DNA of 64,000 bases from positions 3,636,501 through 3,700,500 of the forward strand of contig NZ_CP020772.1 of the NCBI RefSeq assembly GCF_002097535.1, written 5' to 3'. The stretch comes from Halobacillus mangrovi (GTDB lineage: Bacteria > Bacillota > Bacilli > Bacillales > Halobacillaceae). This document shows positions 3,098-14,934 of this stretch, piece by piece (position 1 is the first letter of the stretch; each line of letters starts with the position of its first letter). The translations under genes and the position numbers were made by a program. Under the pieces are notes generated by a model. It was not told the DNA's origin and did not search any database. It was given only the letters and a program-made list of their open reading frames with translations.

Positions 3098-3619
3098 TTA
3101 TTCAGTTTCAGTAGCAGCACGTCTTCTACGTGCGGGAGCGATACCTCCATTACCATTTCCATTCATGACTACGTTAGGATCAATGCATTGAACTGTACAT
3201 AAGCAGTCACAGTCAACGACTATACATTGCCCCGTACGCTCTAGTGTTAAATCGCCTCCTGTACCACATATTTCCCTTAGAGGTACACAACATTGGTTTC
3301 CTGTATTAATCTGTCTACTAGGCAGCAATAGTTCAAGTTGGACACAGCCTGTATCTTCATTAACATTGTTAACTCGGAAATAGACTGTTATTTCACAATC
3401 ATTGTCTTCCAGATTAATAAAACCGAACAATGCTGTATTCGCCTTAGTTGTTAAGACAACCGGAATGGTATCGTGATTATTGTTGACCATACTACAAAAG
3501 TCATTTACGCAACCATTACTTGGAGTATTTGCATTATCCTGCCTTTCTTTAATATCCGCTAAAACACTACACACACAATTTAGAAAACCATTTCCATCAG
3601 AATTACTTCCACAACTCAT
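3098..3619 (-). CDS. Spore coat protein, CotY/CotZ family (173 aa)
   Basis: A cysteine-rich structural protein of the spore crust or outer coat, of the family that self-assembles into disulfide-linked sheets. It shows the family features: an N-terminal CVCSVLADI helix, NDFCSMVNNN, the TIPVVLTTK strand, an FFRV-type segment (TVYFRVNNV) and a Cys-rich C-terminal half with CIVVDCDCLCTVQC. It ends in a short basic tail (ARRRRAATETE). The ATG at 3619 is chosen because GAAAGGAG lies eight bases before it; a TTG seven codons upstream overlaps that ribosome site. It is the shorter member of a tandem pair and lacks the N-terminal extension of its neighbour at 3930. Confidence 0.88.
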   Translation of the reverse strand: MSCGSNSDGNGFLNCVCSVLADIKERQDNANTPSNGCVNDFCSMVNNNHDTIPVVLTTKANTALFGFINLEDNDCEITVYFRVNNVNEDTGCVQLELLLPSRQINTGNQCCVPLREICGTGGDLTLERTGQCIVVDCDCLCTVQCIDPNVVMNGNGNGGIAPARRRRAATETE

Positions 3620-3661
3620 ACAAAAGTAATCTCCTTTCAATATTTAAAATCATTTTCGTAT

Positions 3662-3781: not shown

Positions 3782-4470
3782 TATCAAAGGTGACTCCTTT
3801 CACGATAAAGGCGGCTAGCGTACCACAAATCTCATACAACTTAATTCTTAGTGCGTTTTCCACGTTTTGCTGTCTATAACCAAAAAAAGAGGATCCTTTT
3901 CTAAAAGGCCCTCTTTTTTATAAATAGTTTTATTCAGTTTCAGTAGCAGCACGTCTTCTACGTGCGGTAGCGCTACCTCCATTGCCATTTCCATTCATGA
4001 CTACGTTAGGATCAAGACATTGAATGGTACATAAGCAATCACAATCAACGACTATACATTGTCCCGTACGCTCTAGTGTTAATGCGGGGCCTGCACCACA
4101 TATTTGGTTTAGACGTACACAGCATTGGTTTCCTGGAGCAATCTGTCTACCTTCATTAGGCAGCAACAGTTCAAGTTGGACACAGCCTGTGTCTTCGTTA
4201 ACATTGTTAACTCGGAAATAGACTGTTATTTCACAATCATTGTCTTCAAGATTAATAAAACCGAACAATGCTGTATTCTCCTTAGTTGTTAAGACAACCG
4301 GAATGGTATCAGGATTATTGTTGACCATACTGCAAAAGTCATTTACGCAACCATTACTTGGAGTATTTGCATTATCCTGCCTTTCTTGAATATCCGCTAA
4401 AACACTACACACACAATTTAGTAAATCATTTCCATTAGAATTACTTCCACTTGGGATAGGTCTTGGTGCA
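3782..4470 (-). repeat. Tandem duplication unit, copy 2
   Basis: Matches 2951-3640 over the non-coding flank, terminator and about 165 codons. The copies differ by scattered substitutions and a small insertion in the coding part. Confidence 0.85.
3882..3919 (-). terminator. Terminator of the second CotY/CotZ-type gene
   Basis: Same hairpin as at 3050: A-run plus GAGGATCCTTTT pairing with AAAAGGCCCTC plus T-run, just past the stop codon. Confidence 0.78.
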
Positions 4471-4580
4471 TGGTTTTGTGCATGGTTTTGTGCATGGTTC
4501 GGCGAACAGTCTGAACTTTCCAGACTCTCTACTAAATCGTTACTCTCGTCATAGTAACCATCGTAGCAGTTTTTCTTCAT
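3930..4580 (-). CDS. Spore coat protein, CotY/CotZ family (216 aa, with N-terminal extension)
   Basis: Paralogue of the gene at 3098, over 85 percent identical by eye over the last 165 residues, including CIVVDCDCLCTIQC. It has about 45 extra N-terminal residues: a MKKNCYDGYYDESND start, an acidic Ser/Glu stretch and a three-fold NHAQ/NHAP repeat. The ATG at 4580 follows AAAGGAGAG at normal distance, which excludes the ATG 18 codons upstream. The Tyr/Asp-rich N-terminus resembles that of the third family member at 12363. The extension was probably lost from the other copy or gained here after duplication. A spore crust or exosporium basal-layer role is inferred from the family. Confidence 0.88.
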   Translation of the reverse strand: MKKNCYDGYYDESNDLVESLESSDCSPNHAQNHAQNHAPRPIPSGSNSNGNDLLNCVCSVLADIQERQDNANTPSNGCVNDFCSMVNNNPDTIPVVLTTKENTALFGFINLEDNDCEITVYFRVNNVNEDTGCVQLELLLPNEGRQIAPGNQCCVRLNQICGAGPALTLERTGQCIVVDCDCLCTIQCLDPNVVMNGNGNGGSATARRRRAATETE

Positions 4581-4635
4581 ATTTATCTCTCCTTTATTAA
4601 AATATACCTCATCCTTGTTCTTCAGGTACTCCATA

Positions 4636-4664: not shown

Positions 4665-4916
4665 TCATACAATCACCCATTATTTATGGAAAACAAACGT
4701 TAGCCCATGATAAAAATTCTCCATAAAATTTTTTATTCGATTCATACATGCTCTTTTAGTTGATAAAGGAAATTTAGTTTATAAATTCTTTCATACCAAT
4801 AAGCCCCTGTAAAATATATGTAATTTGTTGAAAGATGGTGAATAAAGATAGATATAACGATACACGTTATTTAATTTTCAGAATAAACAATCAAATGACA
4901 AGAAGAGATACAACCA
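4665..4916. other. Gap before the symporter pseudogene
   Basis: No gene. The last ~75 bases (from about 4840) resemble the leader of the intact symporter gene at 13468, including ATTTTCAGAAT, AACAATCA and the AGA-rich ribosome site, so they belong to the decayed duplicate. Confidence 0.6.
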
Positions 4917-5439
4917 ATGGGAGAATGGCTTTCTAGCCATCATTATTTCTCAAACATTTGTAGATAACATCTTAGGTTGTTCTTGCTACCGCCTTCATTA
5001 TTATCCTTGCCCTGCCTTCCAAAAAGGTGATGTATCAGGGACGGATGGGCCGACGTCTTTATCTCTGTTGCCATTTACTTATTCCTTCCGCTCTATTGTT
5101 GGGTCTTACTACTATGGAGGAACAAATATTTAGTTCATTAAAGAAAGCAACCCCGCGTTATTGGCTTTCAGATGAGGAACGATGGTTTTTGTATTGATAG
5201 GTTCCGTTTCTATCATAAGCCTAGTATGGAAGATGGCCGATTTATTCATGGCTCTTATGAAAGTGATCAACTTGGTAGCAATATGCCTAGTAGGTAAAGT
5301 AGCTTTCAAGGTGCTAATAGATTATGAAATGCAGCGTAAGGAAGGAAAAGAGTCTGTTTTCAAACCGTTTGAACTAGATATTGATAATACGGAAGCTTGG
5401 GAAGAGGAAGAATGTTTAAAAGAAAAAGCGGTCATATAA
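4917..5439 (+). pseudogene. Decayed sodium:alanine symporter (AGCS) gene, internally deleted
   Basis: Remnant of a second copy of the intact AGCS gene at 13468-14895. Its first codons (MGEWLSS...FSNI) match MEELLSS...FSNNI of the parent. After about 14 codons it jumps to sequence matching the parent at about 14370 (TTTGTAGATA), lacks a further ~40 bp near 5035, then follows it to the end (GSYYYG, KMADLFMALM, DYEMQRK). Frame is lost in between. The last 85 codons stay open from 5182, but they would encode only the C-terminal membrane segment and tail. The segment is homologous at DNA level and ends with its own terminator. Not expected to make a working transporter. Confidence 0.9.
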
Positions 5440-5452
5440 TAATAGAAAGAAT

Positions 5453-5480
5453 AAAGGCTTGGGATTTCCCAAGCCTTTTA
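5453..5480 (+). terminator. Terminator behind the symporter pseudogene
   Basis: Perfect 11-bp stem AAAGGCTTGGG/CCCAAGCCTTT with an ATTT loop, followed by TTAAT. Confidence 0.8.
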
Positions 5481-5708: not shown

Positions 5709-5767
5709 CTAGTGAGTCAGAAGAAACTACTAAACTTTTGACTTAAATATATTAAGGAGTGAAAAAT

Positions 5768-6556
5768 ATGAGAAAAAACACTGGCTGTGGAAATGGTCAC
5801 AAAAAATGTCCACCACTTCCAAGTAATGAAGTAGCAAAGTCTAGAAGCTTGCATACTGATACCTTCGGTGTCCCTTTCGGTGACGAAGAAAAGACAGTTG
5901 TCCTTCAAGATGTTTTCATTCAATCTCTTACAGAAGCAGATTTTTATCTGCCAACTTATGCAAGAGCAATTAAAAACATCGAGAAAAACGTGTTCTTAAC
6001 TCAATGTAAAGCGATTCCTGTGCCTGGTTTTCCTTGTAAAGTCAAACTTTTCGTAGAAGGATTTGTACACAAAAACATTCAATATGTTGAAGAGGGTTTC
6101 GGTAATGTAAAAGATTTCAGCATTGATATTCCATTCAAAGCCTATGATCTAGTAAAACTTGAAAAACCGGTTAAATTCCCATTTGGTACTGAATTCAGTG
6201 TCAAAGACAATGTACTTCAGTACAGAGAGCTAGCAAAAGATGGCATGGGAGCCGACCGCTGTGAATTTGGTTCACTAACATGGGAAATCAATAATGAGCC
6301 GATCGAGTGCAAACTCCTTGCGCACGCCGTAAACCAGTTGGACATTGTGCACAACTTTGATAACTGGGGACGTTTTAACAAGATCACAGAAAAAATGGAT
6401 ATCACCCTTGTTATTAAACTAACTCAAAAACAGCAAAAAGATAAAAAACGTAAGAAACCACCGGTTAATTCTAGTAATGGATACTCTTCTGAAGAAACAA
6501 CTGAATCTTATCCTGAAACGTCTATGGACAGATTCAGAAGAAGCATTGGTCGGTAA
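5768..6556 (+). CDS. SPOCS-like (CsxC-type) spore surface protein
   Basis: 262 residues, no signal peptide or membrane segment. It belongs to a family of three similar proteins in this window (5768, 8499, 9680). The shared core reads IKNIEKNVFLTQC, then LFVEGFVHKNIQYV, then an IDIPFKAY strand and a late block with a CEF...EW pair. That beta-rich core resembles the SPOCS (DUF3794) domain and the CsxC family of spore surface proteins; this link is from memory, not a search. The tail is basic, then Ser/Glu-rich. The ATG at 5768 is chosen because AAGGAG lies eight bases before it; a GTG three codons earlier overlaps that site. It is likely a coat or exosporium component, from the neighbourhood of CotY/CotZ-type genes. 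Confidence 0.7.
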   Translation: MRKNTGCGNGHKKCPPLPSNEVAKSRSLHTDTFGVPFGDEEKTVVLQDVFIQSLTEADFYLPTYARAIKNIEKNVFLTQCKAIPVPGFPCKVKLFVEGFVHKNIQYVEEGFGNVKDFSIDIPFKAYDLVKLEKPVKFPFGTEFSVKDNVLQYRELAKDGMGADRCEFGSLTWEINNEPIECKLLAHAVNQLDIVHNFDNWGRFNKITEKMDITLVIKLTQKQQKDKKRKKPPVNSSNGYSSEETTESYPETSMDRFRRSIGR

Positions 6557-6621: not shown

Positions 6622-8427
6622 TTAGGAATAACAATGAATATATTGCTCTTGTAATAGATCTATACATAATTGAACATTTCCTTGAACTAAAAATTCTTGA
6701 GAATTACAATGTACATCTAACTCATTATGCCAAACAAAGTGGATCGATTGTAATTGTTCTTCAATAGGTTTCGCAAAGCTTTGGTGATGTTCATAGTGAA
6801 CACTTTCTTCTTGCTCATCTTTAAAGGCATATTCTTTTTGGCTTTTATGGGAGTGTATCGGTTCCTTGAGCCACTTTATACCGACAATTCGATCCCAATA
6901 AACAGGACATTTCAGAGAATGGAATGTGCGTTCAGATGTATCACTTACATATTCAATATCTGCTAGGAGTACCCCGCTTAAGAACGCAGTGGATGATTTT
7001 GAAAGCACTTGGACTTTTAAGGACTGGAGGTTCCATTCGATTTTTGTTACCTCTTGAATCCCCTCTATGAGTTTGACCGATTCCATGATATCAATATCAA
7101 CGTTGAGCCTTGAGAGTAAAACCGGAAGTTTAACTAAAAGAGGATCTTCTTCTTGTTCTTTCTCTTTCTTATCTAAAGGGGCTTTTGCATCTACAATATC
7201 CTTTAGTTCTGCCAAAACTTCGTTACTAGAGCTGCACATTTTTTCGTGCAAGATATCAGAAAATTTTTCCGATAGAGGCCGAGACTCTTCTAAATAATCC
7301 ATTGGATCAATCTCTTCTTCATCTAGTGAAGAAGATTCGTAGGGTTCAGAAGAGGATTCATCTAGTTCGATGGACGAATCTTCTAATCCTTCGAATTTGA
7401 AAGGAGAAGATTCACTTTGTTCTATTGAGGCATCCTCTAATTTATCGATTTGGAAGGAAGAAGATTCATGTTGTTCTTCATAAGCATCCTCTAATTCATC
7501 GATCTCGAAGGAAGAAGATTCGTTTAACATGGTAGAAATGTCACTATAAATGGCATCTTCTTCCTGATGTGAAAAATCCTTTTCATGTACGTCTTCCTTT
7601 ACTTCCAATCGATCAACCGATTCTTCCACAATGGATTCAGCCAGGTCCATTTCCTTTTGAGAAATATAGTGGTTTTTAAATCCGTCATATTGACTTGAAG
7701 AACTCTCAATAGAGGTAAGGATGTCTGATAATATTAAAAAATCACCTTCACCATCATAAGCATCGTCTTGTGTATAGATTTCTTCATCTTCAAATAAATC
7801 TTCTTCTTGGATCCAGTTAATAAGGTTAGAAGAAGCTGCCTCATCTTCGTCACTAGAAGACCATTTTTTAATAGGCACAATTTCATTATACATGGACGCT
7901 TCAGATGAGGATTCATCTAACATAGAAAGAAACTCTTTTAAAAGCGACCCCTTTTGGCCATTATCACTTAAATTATTTCTTTCATCAAAAAACTTATCCT
8001 CATCAAACTTAAACTTATCTTCTTGATAATTGTCAGAACTATTGCTTTTGGGGCTAGAGGTATTTTCTTTCCGTTTGGAGGATTTACGCTTCCTAAACTC
8101 ATTAGAATCGGCTCTTTTTTTGGAGTCTTTCTTTTTCTTGTCACGCTTTGAGCCCGTGGATGAATGTTGATTAGATATTTCTTGATCATAAACCTCAGGT
8201 GGGGGAGTGATCACAGGATGAGAATTTATGTCCCCGTTCCTAAGAGGTGTATAGATATTATTTTTTTTGGAGACCTTTTTATTATTCATTTGTTTTTTAG
8301 GATGGGTGGAGTGATGGTATTCGGCAAGGTCATTCTTATAACGATTTGATTCAGATGGGCGTGCGCGTTTGGATCGATGCCGATTATTCCAATGCTTCTG
8401 TATGAATGTGTTTTTTTCACTCTTCAT
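6622..8427 (-). CDS. Large acidic Ser/Glu-rich protein with C-terminal SPOCS-like domain (601 aa)
   Basis: Three parts are visible. Residues 1-130 are basic and low in complexity (KKKDSKKRADS, SSKRKENTSSP). Residues 130-400 are highly acidic and Ser-rich with clusters such as DESSSE and three tandem 18-residue repeats of the type ESSSFEIDELEDAYEEQH. Residues 430-601 are a globular domain whose start (LPVLLSRLNVDIDI...LSGVLLADIEYV) aligns with the core of the SPOCS-like neighbours (VPVVLAELDLQLNL...IKGFVRKNIQYA). No signal peptide or membrane segment. The ribosome site is weak (TAGGGT). It lies 71 bp behind the gene at 8499 and is probably co-transcribed with it. A spore coat or exosporium role is inferred; the acidic part could be phosphorylated or bind calcium or basic coat proteins. 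Confidence 0.72.
   Translation of the reverse strand: MKSEKNTFIQKHWNNRHRSKRARPSESNRYKNDLAEYHHSTHPKKQMNNKKVSKKNNIYTPLRNGDINSHPVITPPPEVYDQEISNQHSSTGSKRDKKKKDSKKRADSNEFRKRKSSKRKENTSSPKSNSSDNYQEDKFKFDEDKFFDERNNLSDNGQKGSLLKEFLSMLDESSSEASMYNEIVPIKKWSSSDEDEAASSNLINWIQEEDLFEDEEIYTQDDAYDGEGDFLILSDILTSIESSSSQYDGFKNHYISQKEMDLAESIVEESVDRLEVKEDVHEKDFSHQEEDAIYSDISTMLNESSSFEIDELEDAYEEQHESSSFQIDKLEDASIEQSESSPFKFEGLEDSSIELDESSSEPYESSSLDEEEIDPMDYLEESRPLSEKFSDILHEKMCSSSNEVLAELKDIVDAKAPLDKKEKEQEEDPLLVKLPVLLSRLNVDIDIMESVKLIEGIQEVTKIEWNLQSLKVQVLSKSSTAFLSGVLLADIEYVSDTSERTFHSLKCPVYWDRIVGIKWLKEPIHSHKSQKEYAFKDEQEESVHYEHHQSFAKPIEEQLQSIHFVWHNELDVHCNSQEFLVQGNVQLCIDLLQEQYIHCYS
7361..7522 (-). repeat. Three 54-bp in-frame tandem repeats
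   Basis: Encodes residues ~302-355 of the 601-residue protein: three diverged copies of ESSSFxIDxLEDAxxEQx. The unit is 54 bp. Confidence 0.75.
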
Positions 8428-8498: not shown

Positions 8499-9287
8499 TT
8501 AGTCACATGATTCCGAATAAGAGTCTTTTTCACAGTAATCATTTGTCGTTGAAGCCACCCGTATTTGTTGATTTTGTAAAACTTTCAAGCGGATATCTAG
8601 AACCATTTTTTCTTCCACTTTAGTAAAGTACCCTTCATTAAACGGAGCATCTCCTGGAAGTGGCATACGATCCAGGGCTTCATCCCATTCAATGATGCTG
8701 CTTGAAATCAGCTCACAGAAAGGAAGCTCATTATAGAATTGGCGGCTCTCCTGGTGAAATTGGGAAAGATCACTTGATAGCAGCTGGTCTTTTTCAGGGA
8801 ACCCGGACGGTAAGGATTTCGTCACGGCAAAATCAAACTCTTCCCGATTGTTGATTTTCGGCTGGACCGGATATGATAAGAAGTCTTTAATTTCCGTTAC
8901 ACATTCAAATGGAATGTCTACTGTATAAGAGTGCAAATCAGAGGCTACTGATTTTGATGTACTTTGATCGATCTCAGGACTAGGACTTGCATATTGGATA
9001 TTTTTACGTACAAATCCTTTAATAAATAATTTGTGAGTTGGAAGCAGCAATCTGCATTGAGTCAAATTGACTCGTTTTTTAATGTCTTTGATCTCTAATA
9101 CTGGTTCAGGGAAGGTGATGGTTTCATCTAAATTTAATTGCAGGTCAAGTTCCGCTAATACTACAGGAACTTTAGAGTAAATTTTTCCGAGACTTACTTT
9201 CGGTTTAATCGCTTTGTTCTCACAATGGTGTAAGTTTGATGTCACTTTACAATCATAGTTATTGAAACCCTTATTCATATCAGTCAT
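8499..9287 (-). CDS. SPOCS-like (CsxC-type) spore surface protein
   Basis: 262 residues, cytosolic type, paralogous to the genes at 5768 and 9680. The core reads VPVVLAELDLQLNL, EIKDIKKRVNLTQC, LFIKGFVRKNIQYASP, a VDIPFECV strand and the block LSSDLSQFHQ...FYNELPFCELISSSIIEWDEA, which is almost the same in the 9680 gene. The ATG at 9287 follows AGGAGG by seven bases; an ATG ten codons upstream overlaps the ribosome site. A good sigma-K promoter lies just upstream, so expression late in the mother cell is likely. The function as a coat or exosporium protein is inferred from family and context. Confidence 0.72.
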   Translation of the reverse strand: MTDMNKGFNNYDCKVTSNLHHCENKAIKPKVSLGKIYSKVPVVLAELDLQLNLDETITFPEPVLEIKDIKKRVNLTQCRLLLPTHKLFIKGFVRKNIQYASPSPEIDQSTSKSVASDLHSYTVDIPFECVTEIKDFLSYPVQPKINNREEFDFAVTKSLPSGFPEKDQLLSSDLSQFHQESRQFYNELPFCELISSSIIEWDEALDRMPLPGDAPFNEGYFTKVEEKMVLDIRLKVLQNQQIRVASTTNDYCEKDSYSESCD

Positions 9288-9315
9288 TTGATTTCCTCCT
9301 AAGCAAATATACTTC

Positions 9316-9341
9316 ATCGTATGTGGGATGAATGACTATGT
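9316..9341 (-). promoter_or_regulatory. Sigma-K-like promoter of the 8499-9287 gene
   Basis: AC (9340-9341), 16 bases, CATACGATG (9315-9323) on the minus strand. All key positions of AC-N16-CATA-N3-TA match except the last. Start codon about 28 bp downstream. Confidence 0.6.
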
Positions 9342-9679: not shown

Positions 9680-10465
9680 TTACGCAGTGCCGTTGTCGTT
9701 GTTAACTTCCACTAGCTGCTCTTGAAGAACTCTGACTCTGAAGGTGAGCGTCATTTTCTCTACCATATGGTGGAAAAAGCCCTCATCGACAGGACTGTCG
9801 TCGCCATATCCACCGTTTATAGATTTACGATCTGTGGCCTCATCCCATTCGATAATGTCATGAGATACGAGTTCACAAAATGGCAGGTCGTTATAATACC
9901 CAGTACTTGCTTGGTGGAACTGTGAGATGTCACTAGATAAAAACTTATCTTTTTCAGGGAAGCCTTTACCTAAATCTTGAGCTCTGAAGAAATCGAATTC
10001 ACTTCTTGTATTGGTTACAGGCAAGATTGCATCTACTTCTAACGTAACTTGTGTGAAGCATTTAAAAGGAATCTTTACTGTTAATGACTTCAACTCAGCC
10101 GATACGCATTCACCTTTGTCATTATGACAAGGAGAGGCGTATTGAATGTTTTTACGTACATATCCCTCAAGGAACAATGGAAAAGGTCCTACTGAAGATG
10201 GATCCGTTGGTCTTGCCACTCGAGTCATCAGACGGCATTGAGTAATAATGACTCTTTTCTTAATATCCTTAATTTCCATAACTGGATGAGGGAATTTGAT
10301 ATCAGCAACTAGATGAGTCGTAACATCATAAGTCCCCAATTTTACAGGCACTCTGATTTGACGGGTATCCGTTATGGCTGTTTCAGCATCTCGACTGCTC
10401 ATGCACTGTTCAACTGAAGCAGACATACTAAGGTCTACACAATCATGATGATTATCTTTTTTCAT
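9680..10465 (-). CDS. SPOCS-like (CsxC-type) spore surface protein
   Basis: 261 residues, the closest relative of the gene at 8499. Shared blocks are VPVKLGTYDVT, EIKDIKKRVIITQC, LFLEGYVRKNIQYASP, VKIPFKCF and the GFPEKDKFLSSDISQFHQ / YYNDLPFCELVSHDIIEWDEA pair. The N-terminus is His- and Cys-containing (MKKDNHHDCVDL). The ATG at 10465 is preferred; a TTG one codon upstream is equally close to the AAGGAGG site. It has its own terminator and a sigma-K-type -10, so it is a single-gene unit transcribed away from the actin-like gene. Role in the spore surface inferred. Confidence 0.72.
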   Translation of the reverse strand: MKKDNHHDCVDLSMSASVEQCMSSRDAETAITDTRQIRVPVKLGTYDVTTHLVADIKFPHPVMEIKDIKKRVIITQCRLMTRVARPTDPSSVGPFPLFLEGYVRKNIQYASPCHNDKGECVSAELKSLTVKIPFKCFTQVTLEVDAILPVTNTRSEFDFFRAQDLGKGFPEKDKFLSSDISQFHQASTGYYNDLPFCELVSHDIIEWDEATDRKSINGGYGDDSPVDEGFFHHMVEKMTLTFRVRVLQEQLVEVNNDNGTA

Positions 10466-10498
10466 CAATTTTTTCCTCCTTTTGATTTAACCTCACTG

Positions 10499-10525: not shown

Positions 10526-10645
10526 ATGGTTAAATGAATCAGTATAAACGTGGATTTTTATGACAACTTTTAAAAAATGTCGATTTATAGACTAGATTCC
10601 ATTTAACAGGCACATATTTAAAAAGTTTTTATTAGTACTTGCACA

Positions 10646-10672
10646 CCCTCCCGCCCAATTCGCATAGGCTAG
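10646..10672 (+). promoter_or_regulatory. Sigma-K-like promoter of the actin-like gene
   Basis: AC (10646-10647), exactly 16 bases, then CATAGGCTA (10664-10672): a full match to AC-N16-CATA-N3-TA. The start codon is 22 bp further on, so the leader would be only about 15 bases and would begin near the AGGAGGT ribosome site. Confidence 0.6.
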
Positions 10673-10693
10673 ACCATCAGGAGGTCGATCAAC

Positions 10694-11884
10694 ATGTTAA
10701 AAAACAATATTTTTGCTGTAGATGTCGGAAACAGCTGGTATAAGGTCATCGCTTCTGACGATGGGGAATTGCTTGAATACCAGATGCCAAATGCCATTGC
10801 CTTATTTGATGAAGAATTTTATGAAAAACCCTACGATGAAGAAGATGTGGATTTCGAGGAAAATCTCATTGTTGAAATTAAAAGCCCGACCGTAGTTGAC
10901 AGACGTGAAATTTATTACATCGGTAAAGCTGCGATGAAGCAAAAGAATGTTAGTCTCACCTCTTTTAATAATCAAAAAATCGATGAAGAACGCACTTATA
11001 TTCTCTTACATTCGATAGCTGCATACCATGCCCTTCTCTCCAACCCATCAGAAGCAGAAATTGATTACCATATTGATCAATTGGCTGTATCCCTCCCAAC
11101 CACACAATACAAAGAAAAGAAAGAAGTCTTCAAAGAACGCTTGAAAGGCGTTCATACTGTTATTTTTCATAAAGTTCCCGGCATTCAAGAACCAAAAGAA
11201 GTGGCTGTAAAGATTCATATTGACGATGTCATTGTAGGAGCTGAAGGGGCACTTGCCTATTTAAGCCTCACACGTGATCCTGAGACTTTGAATATCAACA
11301 ATGATTCACTGGTAAATGACTCACGAAAAGGCATTATCATCGGAGACTTAGGTGGAGATTCGGTTGACTTTGTAGGAATAAAAAATAACAAGCCTGTCGC
11401 TTCTATTGAAGGAGAGCAATTTGGTATCAATCAATTTTTAGATAACATCATTCAAAAAGTGAGCAAGAATGAGCTCTACAAATTTAATTCAAGATCAGAG
11501 CTTGAAGAAAAATTAGCGGCAGGGCAGTCGGAATGGTATGTGGAGCCTTTTGCCGGTGTAAAAAAAGATATTAGTAAATACATTATCCCTCAACTCAAAT
11601 CTATGGCCATTAAATACCTTGAACATTTTGATCGAGTGAGGAGCAGTTCAAATGAGATCAACGGGGCCGTACGCTATATTGCCGTTGGTGGTGCGGCAGA
11701 TATTGCTCAAAGACAAATCAAAGAAGCTGCAGTGAAGTGGAGTGAACGAGGCAGACCTATTGAATTAACATTTCCTGAGGATATGGCTAAACTGAATGTT
11801 CAAGGCCTGTTGATCCTTGCGAAAATGAATCTGCTTAAGAAGGATAAGATCGGTCAGAATGATTATGTATTGGCAAAAAGCTAA
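10694..11884 (+). CDS. ParM/StbA-type actin-like ATPase
   Basis: 396 residues with the actin fold signatures of plasmid-segregation ATPases: phosphate-1 loop VDVGNSWYKVI (residues ~9-19), LAVSLPTTQY, phosphate-2 loop IGDLGGDSVDFVGI (~218-231) and the adenosine motif IAVGGAADIAQ (~336-346). Members such as ParM and Alp7A form polar filaments that push DNA copies apart. The ATG follows AGGAGGT at good distance. What is odd is the setting: a chromosomal-looking locus inside a spore coat gene island, with a mother-cell-type promoter, and no replication gene nearby. No clear array of centromere-like repeats is visible upstream. It could be a relic of a plasmid partition system or a filament with a sporulation role. 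Confidence 0.85.
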   Translation: MLKNNIFAVDVGNSWYKVIASDDGELLEYQMPNAIALFDEEFYEKPYDEEDVDFEENLIVEIKSPTVVDRREIYYIGKAAMKQKNVSLTSFNNQKIDEERTYILLHSIAAYHALLSNPSEAEIDYHIDQLAVSLPTTQYKEKKEVFKERLKGVHTVIFHKVPGIQEPKEVAVKIHIDDVIVGAEGALAYLSLTRDPETLNINNDSLVNDSRKGIIIGDLGGDSVDFVGIKNNKPVASIEGEQFGINQFLDNIIQKVSKNELYKFNSRSELEEKLAAGQSEWYVEPFAGVKKDISKYIIPQLKSMAIKYLEHFDRVRSSSNEINGAVRYIAVGGAADIAQRQIKEAAVKWSERGRPIELTFPEDMAKLNVQGLLILAKMNLLKKDKIGQNDYVLAKS

Positions 11885-11896
11885 AGGGTGAAAATA

Positions 11897-12265
11897 ATGT
11901 CAAGAATATACAGTGATTATTTTAATCAAACTGTTTTAACTATTCCTGACACATTCATTGATGTAAAAACTGGCGAAACTCATCAAGTGTCTCCTAAAAT
12001 CAATGAAGAAATTGAATACCATTCCATGAATAATACACTGCAGCACCTCATCTTCTCTGCTCTTCATAGCTACTTTCAACAAAAGCAAACGAATCATGAA
12101 AGTACAAATGATTTACTACTTGAATTACTAGAAATCAAAAAAATGTTGAATCATGGAAACAGGAATAGTTCCTCAGTCAGGAGCAAGCCGATTGAAAAAT
12201 CAGTCACGTCTGAAAAAGTGGATCTGAAAGAGATCGAGGATCTTCTTGAAGCATTTGGGGGATAA
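11897..12265 (+). CDS. Small partner of the actin-like protein (candidate ParR-type adaptor)
   Basis: 122 residues, soluble, starting 12 bp behind the actin-like gene; ATG at 11897 lies eight bases after AAAGGG. A Tyr/Asn-rich N-terminal part (SRIYSDYFNQTVLTIPDTF) is followed by a probable helix (LQHLIFSALHSYFQQKQ), a second helix (LLLELLEIKKML), a Ser/Lys linker and an acidic C-terminal peptide KEIEDLLEAFGG. ParR-type adaptors bind their filament through such a C-terminal peptide, and the gene order filament-then-adaptor is usual. No ribbon-helix-helix DNA-binding motif is obvious, so DNA binding is not supported by what can be seen. Confidence 0.6.
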   Translation: MSRIYSDYFNQTVLTIPDTFIDVKTGETHQVSPKINEEIEYHSMNNTLQHLIFSALHSYFQQKQTNHESTNDLLLELLEIKKMLNHGNRNSSSVRSKPIEKSVTSEKVDLKEIEDLLEAFGG

Positions 12266-12277
12266 GAAGCTTATGTA

Positions 12278-12312
12278 TAGAAGGTAGCCTAACCGATTAG
12301 GTTTACCTTCTA
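12278..12312. terminator. Convergent terminator between actin operon and coat gene
   Basis: TAGAAGGTA-CCTAA pairs with TTAGG-TTACCTTCTA (one bulged base on each side), loop CCGA, between converging genes. Confidence 0.7.
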
Positions 12313-12362
12313 TTCTGATTTTCTCAGAATAAATCGACTTGTAGTAGTGCTTCTGACCATTC

Positions 12363-12992
12363 TTACAAATGTACTGCAGGCAAGCAAGTTACTGCACAGA
12401 AACAGGATAGGTCAACGTTAATACAAATTCCAGTGCCTACTAAGTCATCCAGATCCTTGTGGTCTATTTGGCCGCAAGCTGAGTGATCATGTTTGCTGTG
12501 GCATTTTCCATCTCGATCCTTTTTAGGTTTCAGATCTGATTTAAACACAAGCAATTCAAGAACCGCACATTTCTTATCGATATCTTTGACTTTGAAAATG
12601 AACGTGTTGACACATTTGAATTTTGTCTTCTTCGAGTGGCAAGTGTATGTCGTGACTCCTGTACCCTTATAAGGATCACATCCACAATATAAAATGACTG
12701 GAATGGTGTTTTTCTTTACTTTTTTCTTTTCCCCTAACAAGTCTTCGATCGACTGTTTACAGGATGTATGGCAGTGGTTATCCTTTTCAGCTTTCTTTTG
12801 TGCAATTAGAATTGCTTCTAATACATCTTCTACACAGTTTTTATAGTGTTTGAACTTTTTATCGTCTTTCTTTTTATCATCTTTCTTTTTATGTCCGCAG
12901 CATTTTTTCTCATGATCTTTTTTCCAGTCATAATCAGAGTCATAACTATCATAACTGTCATAACTTTCGCTTAGATAATCATTAAAACTCAA
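12363..12992 (-). CDS. Spore coat protein, CotY/CotZ family (209 aa)
   Basis: Third member of the CotY/CotZ family here. It has a Tyr/Ser/Asp-rich N-terminus (repeated YDSYDS), a Lys/Asp-rich linker (KKKDDKKKDDKK), a helix with NCVEDVLEAI, TIPVILYCGCDPYKG and the Cys-rich end CINVDLSCFCAVTC that mirrors CIVVDCDCLCTVQC of the paralogues. It is more diverged from the tandem pair than they are from each other. The start is probably TTG at 12992, eight bases after GGAGGAG; the GTG three codons upstream (13001) touches the ribosome site. It likely builds the crust or exosporium basal layer together with the other two. Confidence 0.85.
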   Translation of the reverse strand: MSFNDYLSESYDSYDSYDSDYDWKKDHEKKCCGHKKKDDKKKDDKKFKHYKNCVEDVLEAILIAQKKAEKDNHCHTSCKQSIEDLLGEKKKVKKNTIPVILYCGCDPYKGTGVTTYTCHSKKTKFKCVNTFIFKVKDIDKKCAVLELLVFKSDLKPKKDRDGKCHSKHDHSACGQIDHKDLDDLVGTGICINVDLSCFCAVTCLPAVHL

Positions 12993-13380
12993 TTTTTTCA
13001 CTCCTCCATTTATTGGCTCACCACATTATACGTTGAAGAGTGAATCTTGCTTAATAAGAACGCCCAGAAATGGAGGATAAAGAATTCTAGGTTGTCCTAA
13101 TGTTTCTCCAGTCTAAAAGCCGCTATAGAAATAATAAGAGTGCATTAAAAAGAGCTTCGGTTTTCCAAGCTCTTTTTTCCCTTTCTTCACTTCGTATCTT
13201 GTCACAGGTGAATTTTCCCCTAAACCATATAATACATGAATATAAATACCCCTTTTTATACATTAAATTCCATCATCCTCCTTCAAAATAATTGTTCATA
13301 AAAGGAATATTAGTTTAAAAAACCCTCTATTAGCAATAACTTTCATCTATTGTCAGAATAATGTAATTTGCCTTAATCTA
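12993..13380. other. Gene-free stretch with an isolated hairpin
   Basis: No convincing gene. A short plus-strand open frame (13100-13291) has no ribosome site and crosses a terminator-like hairpin. TATAAT occurs upstream of the coat gene on the minus strand but without a clear -35. Confidence 0.45.
13147..13178. terminator. Isolated terminator-like hairpin
   Basis: AAAAAGAGCTT/AAGCTCTTTTT with a nine-base loop and runs of A and T on the two sides, with no gene immediately before it on either strand. It may mark a lost gene or a small RNA. Confidence 0.5.
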
Positions 13381-13408
13381 TTGAAATCAAAAACAGCTTA
13401 TGTATAAT
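13381..13408 (+). promoter_or_regulatory. Sigma-A promoter of the sodium:alanine symporter gene
   Basis: TTGAAA (13381-13386), 16 bp, TATAAT (13403-13408), 59 bp before the start codon. Confidence 0.65.
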
Positions 13409-13467
13409 AATACCCGTGATTGAATTTTCAGAATTAACAATCATAAAGACAAGGAGAGATTCGACTA

Positions 13468-14895
13468 ATGGAAGAATTGCTTTCAAGCATTATTGACTTT
13501 TCGAATAACATTCTTTGGGGATACGTCCTCATTGCAGGATTGTTAGGAATTGGGATCTACTTCACCATTGCATCCCGATTTGTACAGTTCAGATTTATTG
13601 GAGAAATGATCCGGGTATTGGGGGAAAAACCTCAATTCGAAAATGGAAAGAAAAATATATCACCGTTTAAATCCTTCTGTGTAGGTGCTGCCACACGTAT
13701 TGGTACAGGGAACCTGGCCGGAGTTGCGGTAGCCATTACTTTAGGAGGACCTGGAGCGGTATTCTGGATGTGGATTGTCGCCCTCCTTGGGGGAGCAACG
13801 GCTTTCATCGAGAGTACACTGGCACAGGTATATAAAATCAGGGATTCAAAAGCATTTCGCGGCGGTCCAGCTTATTATATTGAAAAAGGTCTAAAAGCTA
13901 GATGGCTGGGGATTGTTTTTGCTGTACTCATTGCTGTTACATTTGGACTTATATTCAACTCTGTTCAAAGTAATACGATTGCTTTGGCTTTTGAAAATGC
14001 TTTTGGTGTCAATCGCTTAGTCATTGGATTGATCGTAACAGCCATCACAGGTCTGGTTATCTTTGGAGGGGTGCACAGAATTGCCAATCTATCTAGTGTC
14101 ATCGTTCCAATTATGGCTGTTCTTTATTTACTAATTGCCACTGTTGTATTGATTATTAATATTGGAGAATTGCCTTCTGTTATTGGGTTGATTGTCGGAC
14201 ATGCCTTAGGGTTCGAACAGGCTGTGGGCGGCGCAATCGGTGCAGCTATTCTAAATGGTGTAAAACGCGGGTTGTTCTCTAACGAAGCTGGTATGGGTAG
14301 TGCACCAAACGCAGCGGCAACTTCTACGACTTCACACCCGGCAAAACAAGGGCTTATTCAATCACTAGGTGTATTTGTAGATACGATTTTAGTTTGTTCT
14401 TCAACAGCATTCATTATTTTGCTTGCTCCTGCATTTCGTTCAGGGGACATATCAGGAATTGAATTGCTGCAGAACTCTCTTAACTCACATATTGGCGGAT
14501 GGGCAGGCATCTTCATTTCCGTGGCCATCTTCTTATTCGCTTTCAGTTCAATCATTGGTTCTTATTACTATGGAGAAAGCAATATCGAGTTCATCAAAGA
14601 AAGCAAATCAGCGTTACTTGCCTTCCGTTTAGGAACTATGGCCTTTGTACTCATTGGTTCCGTATCCAGCTTAAGCCTGGTATGGAAAATGGCCGACTTG
14701 TTCATGGCACTCATGACCGTGATTAACTTGATTGCCATTGGGTTGTTAGGTAAAGTGGCCTTTAAAGTCTTGAAGGATTACGAAATGCAGCGCAAGGCAG
14801 GAAAAGATCCTGTATTCAAACCTTCAGAATTAGGAATAGAGGATACCGAAGCCTGGGAAGAAGACAAAGAAGAAGAAAAAAGAGCTGCTATTTAA
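13468..14895 (+). CDS. Sodium:alanine/glycine symporter (AGCS family)
   Basis: 475-residue membrane protein that couples sodium entry to uptake of a small neutral amino acid (alanine, glycine or glutamine in relatives such as AlsT). It has the family signature near residues 70-105 (GAATRIGTGNLAGVAVAITLG split over two helices), the RGGPAYYIEKG loop, and NGVKRGLFSNEAGMGSAPNAAA near residue 265-285. Length and topology are those of intact members. Start ATG follows AAGGAGA. It is a single-gene unit with its own promoter and terminator. Its promoter-proximal leader and 3' third are duplicated in the decayed copy at 4917-5439. The acidic tail (EAWEEDKEEEK) is kept in both copies. The exact substrate cannot be read from the sequence. 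Confidence 0.93.
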   Translation: MEELLSSIIDFSNNILWGYVLIAGLLGIGIYFTIASRFVQFRFIGEMIRVLGEKPQFENGKKNISPFKSFCVGAATRIGTGNLAGVAVAITLGGPGAVFWMWIVALLGGATAFIESTLAQVYKIRDSKAFRGGPAYYIEKGLKARWLGIVFAVLIAVTFGLIFNSVQSNTIALAFENAFGVNRLVIGLIVTAITGLVIFGGVHRIANLSSVIVPIMAVLYLLIATVVLIINIGELPSVIGLIVGHALGFEQAVGGAIGAAILNGVKRGLFSNEAGMGSAPNAAATSTTSHPAKQGLIQSLGVFVDTILVCSSTAFIILLAPAFRSGDISGIELLQNSLNSHIGGWAGIFISVAIFLFAFSSIIGSYYYGESNIEFIKESKSALLAFRLGTMAFVLIGSVSSLSLVWKMADLFMALMTVINLIAIGLLGKVAFKVLKDYEMQRKAGKDPVFKPSELGIEDTEAWEEDKEEEKRAAI

Positions 14896-14902
14896 TAGGA
14901 AG

Positions 14903-14934
14903 AAAAAGAGCCTGGATCTTCAGGCTCTTTTTTG
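14903..14934 (+). terminator. Terminator of the AGCS symporter gene
   Basis: AAAAAGAGCCTG/CAGGCTCTTTTT, loop GATCTT, T-rich tail. Confidence 0.88.

Follow-up and report, generated by a model that had tools for sequence, protein, structure and literature searches.

A ParM/Alp7A-type ATPase and its short partner in a spore-surface gene island of Halobacillus mangrovi and related Bacillaceae: a candidate filament system of the mother cell

Main finding and proposed role

In Halobacillus mangrovi and its relatives, the gene of a ParM/Alp7A-type actin-like ATPase ("group A", here also parM) and that of a short partner protein are embedded in an island of spore-surface genes. The window, i.e., the whole stretch of 64,000 nucleotides that was analysed (contig NZ_CP020772.1, positions 3,636,501 to 3,700,500), holds the features collected in Table 1, except for the group-B pair of its last row. 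The reading that fits best, and which we consider probable with some room for doubt, is that the ParM-type pair was recruited to spore-surface assembly in the mother cell, since a parM gene beside genes for the outer spore layers suggests that its filament was taken over for spore-surface building. Such a recruitment had been put forward in the original prediction. It is supported by the lack of any plasmid relative above 32% identity in the records searched, by the conserved setting, and by the conserved −10 element CATANNNT, while the job itself is what we infer from them. Against this reading stand mainly another job in sporulation and the alternative that the pair moves DNA by means of a diverged ParR.

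According to the proposed mechanism, the ATPase and its short adaptor were captured by the spore-surface island and would serve the mother cell during sporulation, where their own CATANNNT promoter would drive the pair together with the CsxC and CotZ genes. The ATPase would form ATP-dependent filaments, the partner would attach to the filament ends through its conserved C-terminal peptide, in the manner of the ParR peptide, and the N-domain of the partner, in which a ParR domain is no longer recognisable, would tie the filament to surface material. Candidates for this material are CsxC/CotZ assemblies and the forespore envelope or membrane, and the tethered filament might place, push, or template sheets of the exosporium or outer coat. 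The more specific picture of an ATP-driven, ParM-derived mother-cell cytoskeleton, which exchanged its DNA adaptor for a new domain and actively assembles or polarises the exosporium or outer coat, is tentative, and we give it somewhat less than an even chance.

Table 1. Features of the window around the ATPase gene and of the second chromosomal pair of the same genome
Feature	Position	Strand	Evidence or remark
CotZ-type protein	3098..3640	−	PF10612, 75 bits
CotZ-type protein	3930..4634	−	PF10612, 75.8 bits
CsxC family protein	5759..6556	+	NF045794, 160.7 bits
601-aa Ser/Glu-rich protein, CsxC-like C-terminal part	6622..8427	−	NF045794, 29.5 bits, under cut-off
CsxC family protein	8499..9317	−	NF045794, 268.6 bits
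CsxC family protein, divergent neighbour of parM	9680..10468	−	NF045794, 241 bits, cut-off 135
Conserved box GTACNNGCAC (window: GTACTTGCAC), near palindrome GTRC-NN-GYAC	10635..10644	+	in 54/65 loci
−10 element CATAGGCTA, mother-cell (sigma-E/K) type	10663..10671	+	CATANNNT in 65/65, CATANNNTA in 6/65 loci
ParM/Alp7A-type actin-like ATPase (group A), 396 aa	10694..11884	+	ORF, Pfam domains
Partner, 122 aa	11897..12265 (ATG start)	+	57-sequence alignment
Hairpin after the pair, possible terminator	12277..12313	+	inverted repeat; fold z −3.3
CotZ-type spore coat protein, convergent with the pair	12363..13001	−	PF10612, 179.5 bits
Na+/alanine symporter gene	13468-14895		right of the convergent CotZ gene
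Group-B ParM with RHH-like partner	L103 9994-11806 (own genome C1, about 500 kb)		second chromosomal pair

The ATPase and its relatives

The ATPase scored above the curated Pfam cut-offs for both ALP_N (54.4 bits, E 2e-14, cut-off 26.3) and Alp7A_like_C (28 bits, E 2e-6, cut-off 22). The key residues of DxGNSxYK, GDLGGDxxDF, and GGA, motifs that we take to form the nucleotide site, showed no variation in an alignment of 40 relatives, and the predicted ParM-like ATPase with three nucleotide-site motifs was thereby confirmed. Both genes of the pair lie on a 4.14-Mb contig and are thus not plasmid-borne.

A protein search with the ATPase yielded 158 homologues at E ≤ 0.001. Among the 120 of these matches that were listed, identities ranged from 71 to 100% (the 100% match being the window's own), and at least 21 were located on contigs longer than 1 Mb. 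The check for plasmid relatives suggested alongside the original prediction was carried out on 72,556 plasmid records, which gave 19 matches to the ATPase, none above 32% identity, and 50,697 phage records contained no relative at all. A scan of species genomes identified 71 group-A loci under 16 genus names, a count from which one MAG and two records with apparently mislabelled titles are excluded; no B. cereus-group record is among the 71. The two titles concerned, Pseudomonas sp. ISL-84 (L048) and Chryseobacterium sp. ISL-80 (L079), carry a Bacillaceae-type island and are probably mislabelled or contaminated assemblies.

Group A is distributed sporadically. In an order-wide sample of 299 genomes it was present in 23 (71-100% identity), and a further 129 had only a distant ParM ("group B") with 27-35% identity among the matches listed. 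In a phylum-wide sample, a match at E ≤ 1e-30 was found in one of 299 genomes, namely the own genome. In a tree with five group-B and five plasmid ParMs, group A formed one clade (99/98), although this tree has long branches, Bsub_P above all.

Conservation of the spore-surface setting

The gene-order comparison across relatives that had been proposed was run on 70 loci (69 of the 71 named loci plus the window; the partial loci L096 and L098, shorter than 4 kb, were left out) after ORF calling and clustering, and the coat/exosporium setting proved to be conserved. The ATPase and CsxC-like families occurred in all 70 loci, the latter with 265 copies, followed by the partner in 66 and CotZ in 53, and the next most common gene family reached only 13. 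The ATPase ORF is split in two in L094 and L102, and the partner ORF was uncalled in L032, L055, L069, and L102. A divergent CsxC gene lay within 1.5 kb upstream of parM in every one of the 70 loci, a convergent CotZ gene within 1.5 kb downstream in 43, and four CsxC-cluster copies were present in 54. The family assignments were also stable: the nearest upstream CsxC-like gene matched the CsxC model NF045794 at E ≤ 0.001 in 69/69 loci, the window being counted apart, and all 53 CotZ proteins compared with Pfam matched (one protein per locus, 53 of the 56 cluster members).

The flanks of the 70 loci fall into 19 groups, which join loci with at least two common flank families and may therefore merge unlike sites. 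Since the CsxC company is unbroken across these groups, the block persists at changing positions, and the CsxC neighbourhood of parM is beyond chance. In the order sample, CsxC was present in 23/23 group-A genomes versus 37/276 others; these 23 are not independent cases because the genomes are related. Conversely, 37 of the 60 CsxC genomes were without a group-A ParM. Fifteen CsxC regions from 15 of these 37 genomes had one to three CsxC genes (three in L151), and neither an ATPase nor a CotZ was recognised in them.

Within the window, spore-surface neighbours had been described for about 7 kb on both sides of the pair. This holds for the CsxC and CotZ genes of the left flank, although that side also includes a decayed partial symporter copy (4853-5462, 74-83% identity to 13403-14915). 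On the right, only the convergent CotZ gene fits the description before the symporter gene begins. A terminator had likewise been expected after the pair; the strong hairpin there agrees with it, but it was absent from the list of the terminator scan. As a side observation beyond the 601-aa protein of the window, other genomes have CsxC matches within open frames that are 400 to 1349 aa long.

Promoter region

From Halobacillus to Mesobacillus, the start codon of parM is preceded by a conserved block resembling GGTACnnGCAC-N18-GCATAgGATTcA. In the 65 loci counted (5 of the 70, which had no start anchor, were left out), CATANNNT was found in 65, GCAC in 64, GTACNNGCAC in 54, CATANGATT in 37, and CATANNNTA in 6, and the spacer from GCAC to CATA was N18 in 52, N17 in 9, and N16 in 3. 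The GTACNNGCAC box is possibly the −35 region and/or an operator of the pair; its free centre and near palindromy would suit a dimeric repressor, for which the partner is a candidate. As the −10 element is only about 30 nt from the start codon of parM, the conserved block could in part act in translation.

The sigma-K consensus combines the −10 CATANNNTA with a −35 AC about 16-17 nt before CATA. A full sigma-K promoter had been predicted for the pair, and AC-N16-CATAGGCTA indeed holds in the window. The relatives, however, mostly have GCAC-N18-CATA, and the full −10 element, present in the window, recurs in only 5 of the remaining 64 loci. The parM promoter may be read by sigma-E or by sigma-K.

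The arrangement AC-N15..18-CATANNNT within 130 nt upstream was found for 49/72 parM ORFs, 58/265 CsxC, 13/56 CotZ, 0/66 partner, and 51/747 other genes. For the −10 type GCATANGAT, the counts were 28/72 parM, 46/265 CsxC, 1/56 CotZ, and 10/748 other genes, with none in shuffles. The promoter scan gave no sigma-70-type site before parM. Upstream conservation together with a −10 type common to the CsxC genes leaves a mother-cell-type promoter of parM well supported as a prediction from sequence. Before the CotZ genes, a TRGGC core, which we take to be GerE-like, was present in 41/56 cases against 10 in shuffles.

In the own genome, GCATANGAT also precedes dpaA, yhbH, prkA, and yfmF, with dpaA and yhbH being sporulation genes by family name; in B. 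subtilis, dpaA, yhbH, and prkA are sigma-K or sigma-E genes. The looser pattern GCATANGATNNA had 31 sites in this genome versus 15 for the reversed control, but 24 of 30 sites examined were inside an open frame of more than 100 codons, and the dpaA and prkA sites are spanned by open frames of 369 or 220 codons. The combination TACNNGCAC-N16..19-CATANNNT was considered as a genome-wide regulon signal and rejected, because it occurs once in the own genome and hence defines no regulon. Separately, a block related to that of parM stands before cotE in seven loci of Rossellomorea; these seven are closely related and not independent. In these Rossellomorea-type loci (L087-L092, L100), cotE lies about 5 kb past parM with a promoter resembling that of parM; for one of the seven, the CotE name was checked against Pfam.

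A common −10 type alone would give co-regulation, and the pair could therefore share only its regulator with the coat genes and do another job in sporulation, such as sporangium shape, engulfment, forespore positioning, or mother-cell lysis. A precedent for shape is the ParM-derived FcmB/FcmC, which controls cell shape in cyanobacteria (PMC12645912). Co-regulation, however, needs neither adjacency through 19 flank groups nor co-occurrence with CsxC, and we consider such a job unlikely.

Selection and co-divergence

The dN/dS values of the ATPase were 0.020-0.051 (12 of 13 close pairs with finite dS), and those of the partner 0.131-0.267 (10 pairs). The ATPase is thus under strong purifying selection. 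In the 42 loci with all five genes, the divergences of ATPase, partner, nearest CsxC, and CotZ were correlated (Mantel r 0.69-0.85), whereas the second CsxC correlated with the ATPase at r 0.22 only, with a permutation maximum of 0.23; the correlations may reflect mere common descent.

These data bear on the notion that the island spreads as a block and carries the pair along without any spore role. The sporadic distribution (23/299 genomes) and the occurrence of the island as a block in unlike neighbourhoods are in line with a passenger, but the purifying selection on the ATPase, its invariant nucleotide site, and the conserved promoter are not. With the low dN/dS and the correlated divergence, passenger and decayed-plasmid readings are unlikely, and for the passenger we put the probability very low.

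The partner protein

The ORF call places the start of the partner at GTG 11888, while the ATG at 11897 gives the 122 residues of the original prediction, whose acidic C-terminal peptide was also recovered as a conserved end, EIEDLLEAFGG. The protein comprises an N-domain (residues 1-64), a variable linker, and this peptide, with column identities of 0.68 (1-64), 0.23 (87-107), and 0.78 (last 11 residues) in 57 sequences. Judged by the alignment, the partner keeps the ParR layout of a domain, a variable linker, and a conserved C-terminal peptide, and a similar C-terminal DLLGDFL occurs in 4/5 group-B partners.

The partner did not match the ParR-type partners of related ParMs. In hhalign comparisons, the alignments of five group-B and five plasmid partners, most with an RHH-like start, matched each other at 99.6%, in contrast to a probability of at most 1.1% for the group-A partner against either set, and a Pfam search of the partner gave no RHH match. 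This missing match proves little, because ParRs diverge widely; by eye, the partner from the B. subtilis plasmid likewise shows little resemblance to the remaining four from plasmids. The structure model (pLDDT near 90 across residues 11-60) has strands at 12-16 and 19-21 and a short strand at 28-30, followed by helices of 12 and 17 residues, and this strand-then-helices order could be a disguised RHH. Fold searches with the model gave weak, uninformative matches, and a profile comparison of the partner with CsxC or CotZ showed no link. Without a ParR match and with a model that is perhaps a disguised RHH, the adaptor binding domain is either replaced or altered past recognition. The charge of the N-domain was considered as a sign of lost DNA binding and dismissed: means were −1.9 in group A (n = 57) and values +5 to +6 in group-B ParRs (n = 5), yet plasmid partners span −4 to +3 (n = 5), so charge does not decide the matter.

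The pair might thus still move DNA, with a diverged RHH-type ParR that binds GTRC-NN-GYAC or an unseen centromere, and with the coat genes as mere neighbours. Its filament would then segregate chromosome, island, or plasmid DNA, perhaps in sporulation. The plasmid-segregating Alp7A and ParMs are among the top fold relatives of the ATPase, the short strand and two helices of the partner model are compatible with an RHH, and the near-palindromic upstream box has a free centre. On the other hand, the box is single, and no repeat count exceeded the shuffle maximum in 12 of 65 upstreams tested, in a test that missed all five plasmid controls; around the pair itself, no repeat array was seen at this low power. 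Together with the hhalign contrast, the missing Pfam RHH match, the lack of close plasmid relatives, and the constant CsxC company, this makes a DNA-moving pair rather improbable in our view.

Comparison with known systems

Alp7A, which originates from a B. subtilis plasmid, and the plasmid ParMs of Bacillaceae and Paenibacillus differ from group A in that the latter is chromosomal and at most 32% identical to them. Their partners gave no match to the group-A partner, and group A is without a visible repeat array in the low-power test. The original prediction had regarded the new use of a ParM-type protein as a novelty. Repurposed or chromosomal ParMs have, however, been published (PMC12645912, PMC12270681), and a change of use in a ParM is by itself no novelty.

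As far as the accessible text of the source goes, the chromosome-encoded Dh-cParM1, Cb-cParM, and Bt-cParM share a chromosomal location and a conserved ParM fold with group A, and functions beyond plasmids were proposed for them (PMC12270681). Conserved neighbours of Cb-cParM include a sporulation amidase gene, but no coat or exosporium setting is described for the three in that portion of the paper, while group A is tied to CsxC and CotZ (PMC12270681). Bt-cParM comes from Bacillus tropicus and might belong to group A or to group B. The Nostoc FcmB/FcmC evolved from plasmid actins and sets cell shape; it resembles the group-A pair in having a ParM-type fold and a partner, but its non-DNA job is cyanobacterial cell shape and not a Bacillaceae spore-surface island (PMC12645912). 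CorM/CorR of Anabaena, known here from the PDB title 9rmi alone, likewise appears to combine a ParM-type fold with a partner. In the accessible text of the FcmB/FcmC and cParM papers, no connection is drawn between an actin-like protein and the spore coat or exosporium (PMC12645912, PMC12270681). Literature searches outside subscription papers and preprints gave, among the papers listed, none that ties coat or exosporium genes to a ParM/Alp protein.

CotZ is a member of the ExsY/CotY/CotZ group. Morphogenetic proteins and SpoIVA, an ATPase that forms a static polymer, are also invoked to explain how coat and exosporium are assembled. Self-assembly accounts for the exosporium and coat, with ExsY and CotY forming self-assembling exosporium or crust lattices (PMC5434927). 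CsxC, the family of the genes flanking the pair, was found in the exosporium of C. sporogenes, and the accessible section of that report mentions no actin-like gene (PMC4942563). If recruitment of the pair to the spore surface is correct, a dynamic actin-type filament would add a cytoskeleton to coat and exosporium assembly, and one more plasmid-type actin would have been co-opted for a task of the cell.

Group B of the Bacillales resembles group A as a chromosomal ParM fold (about 30% identity) and differs from it by an RHH-like partner and a separate locus. Its partners from five genomes align with plasmid ParR-type partners, and group B is possibly a widespread chromosomal ParMRC system. 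Upstream of its ParM, GTATAC/TGTACA-type palindromic words recur, exceeding the shuffle maximum in 2/5 cases.
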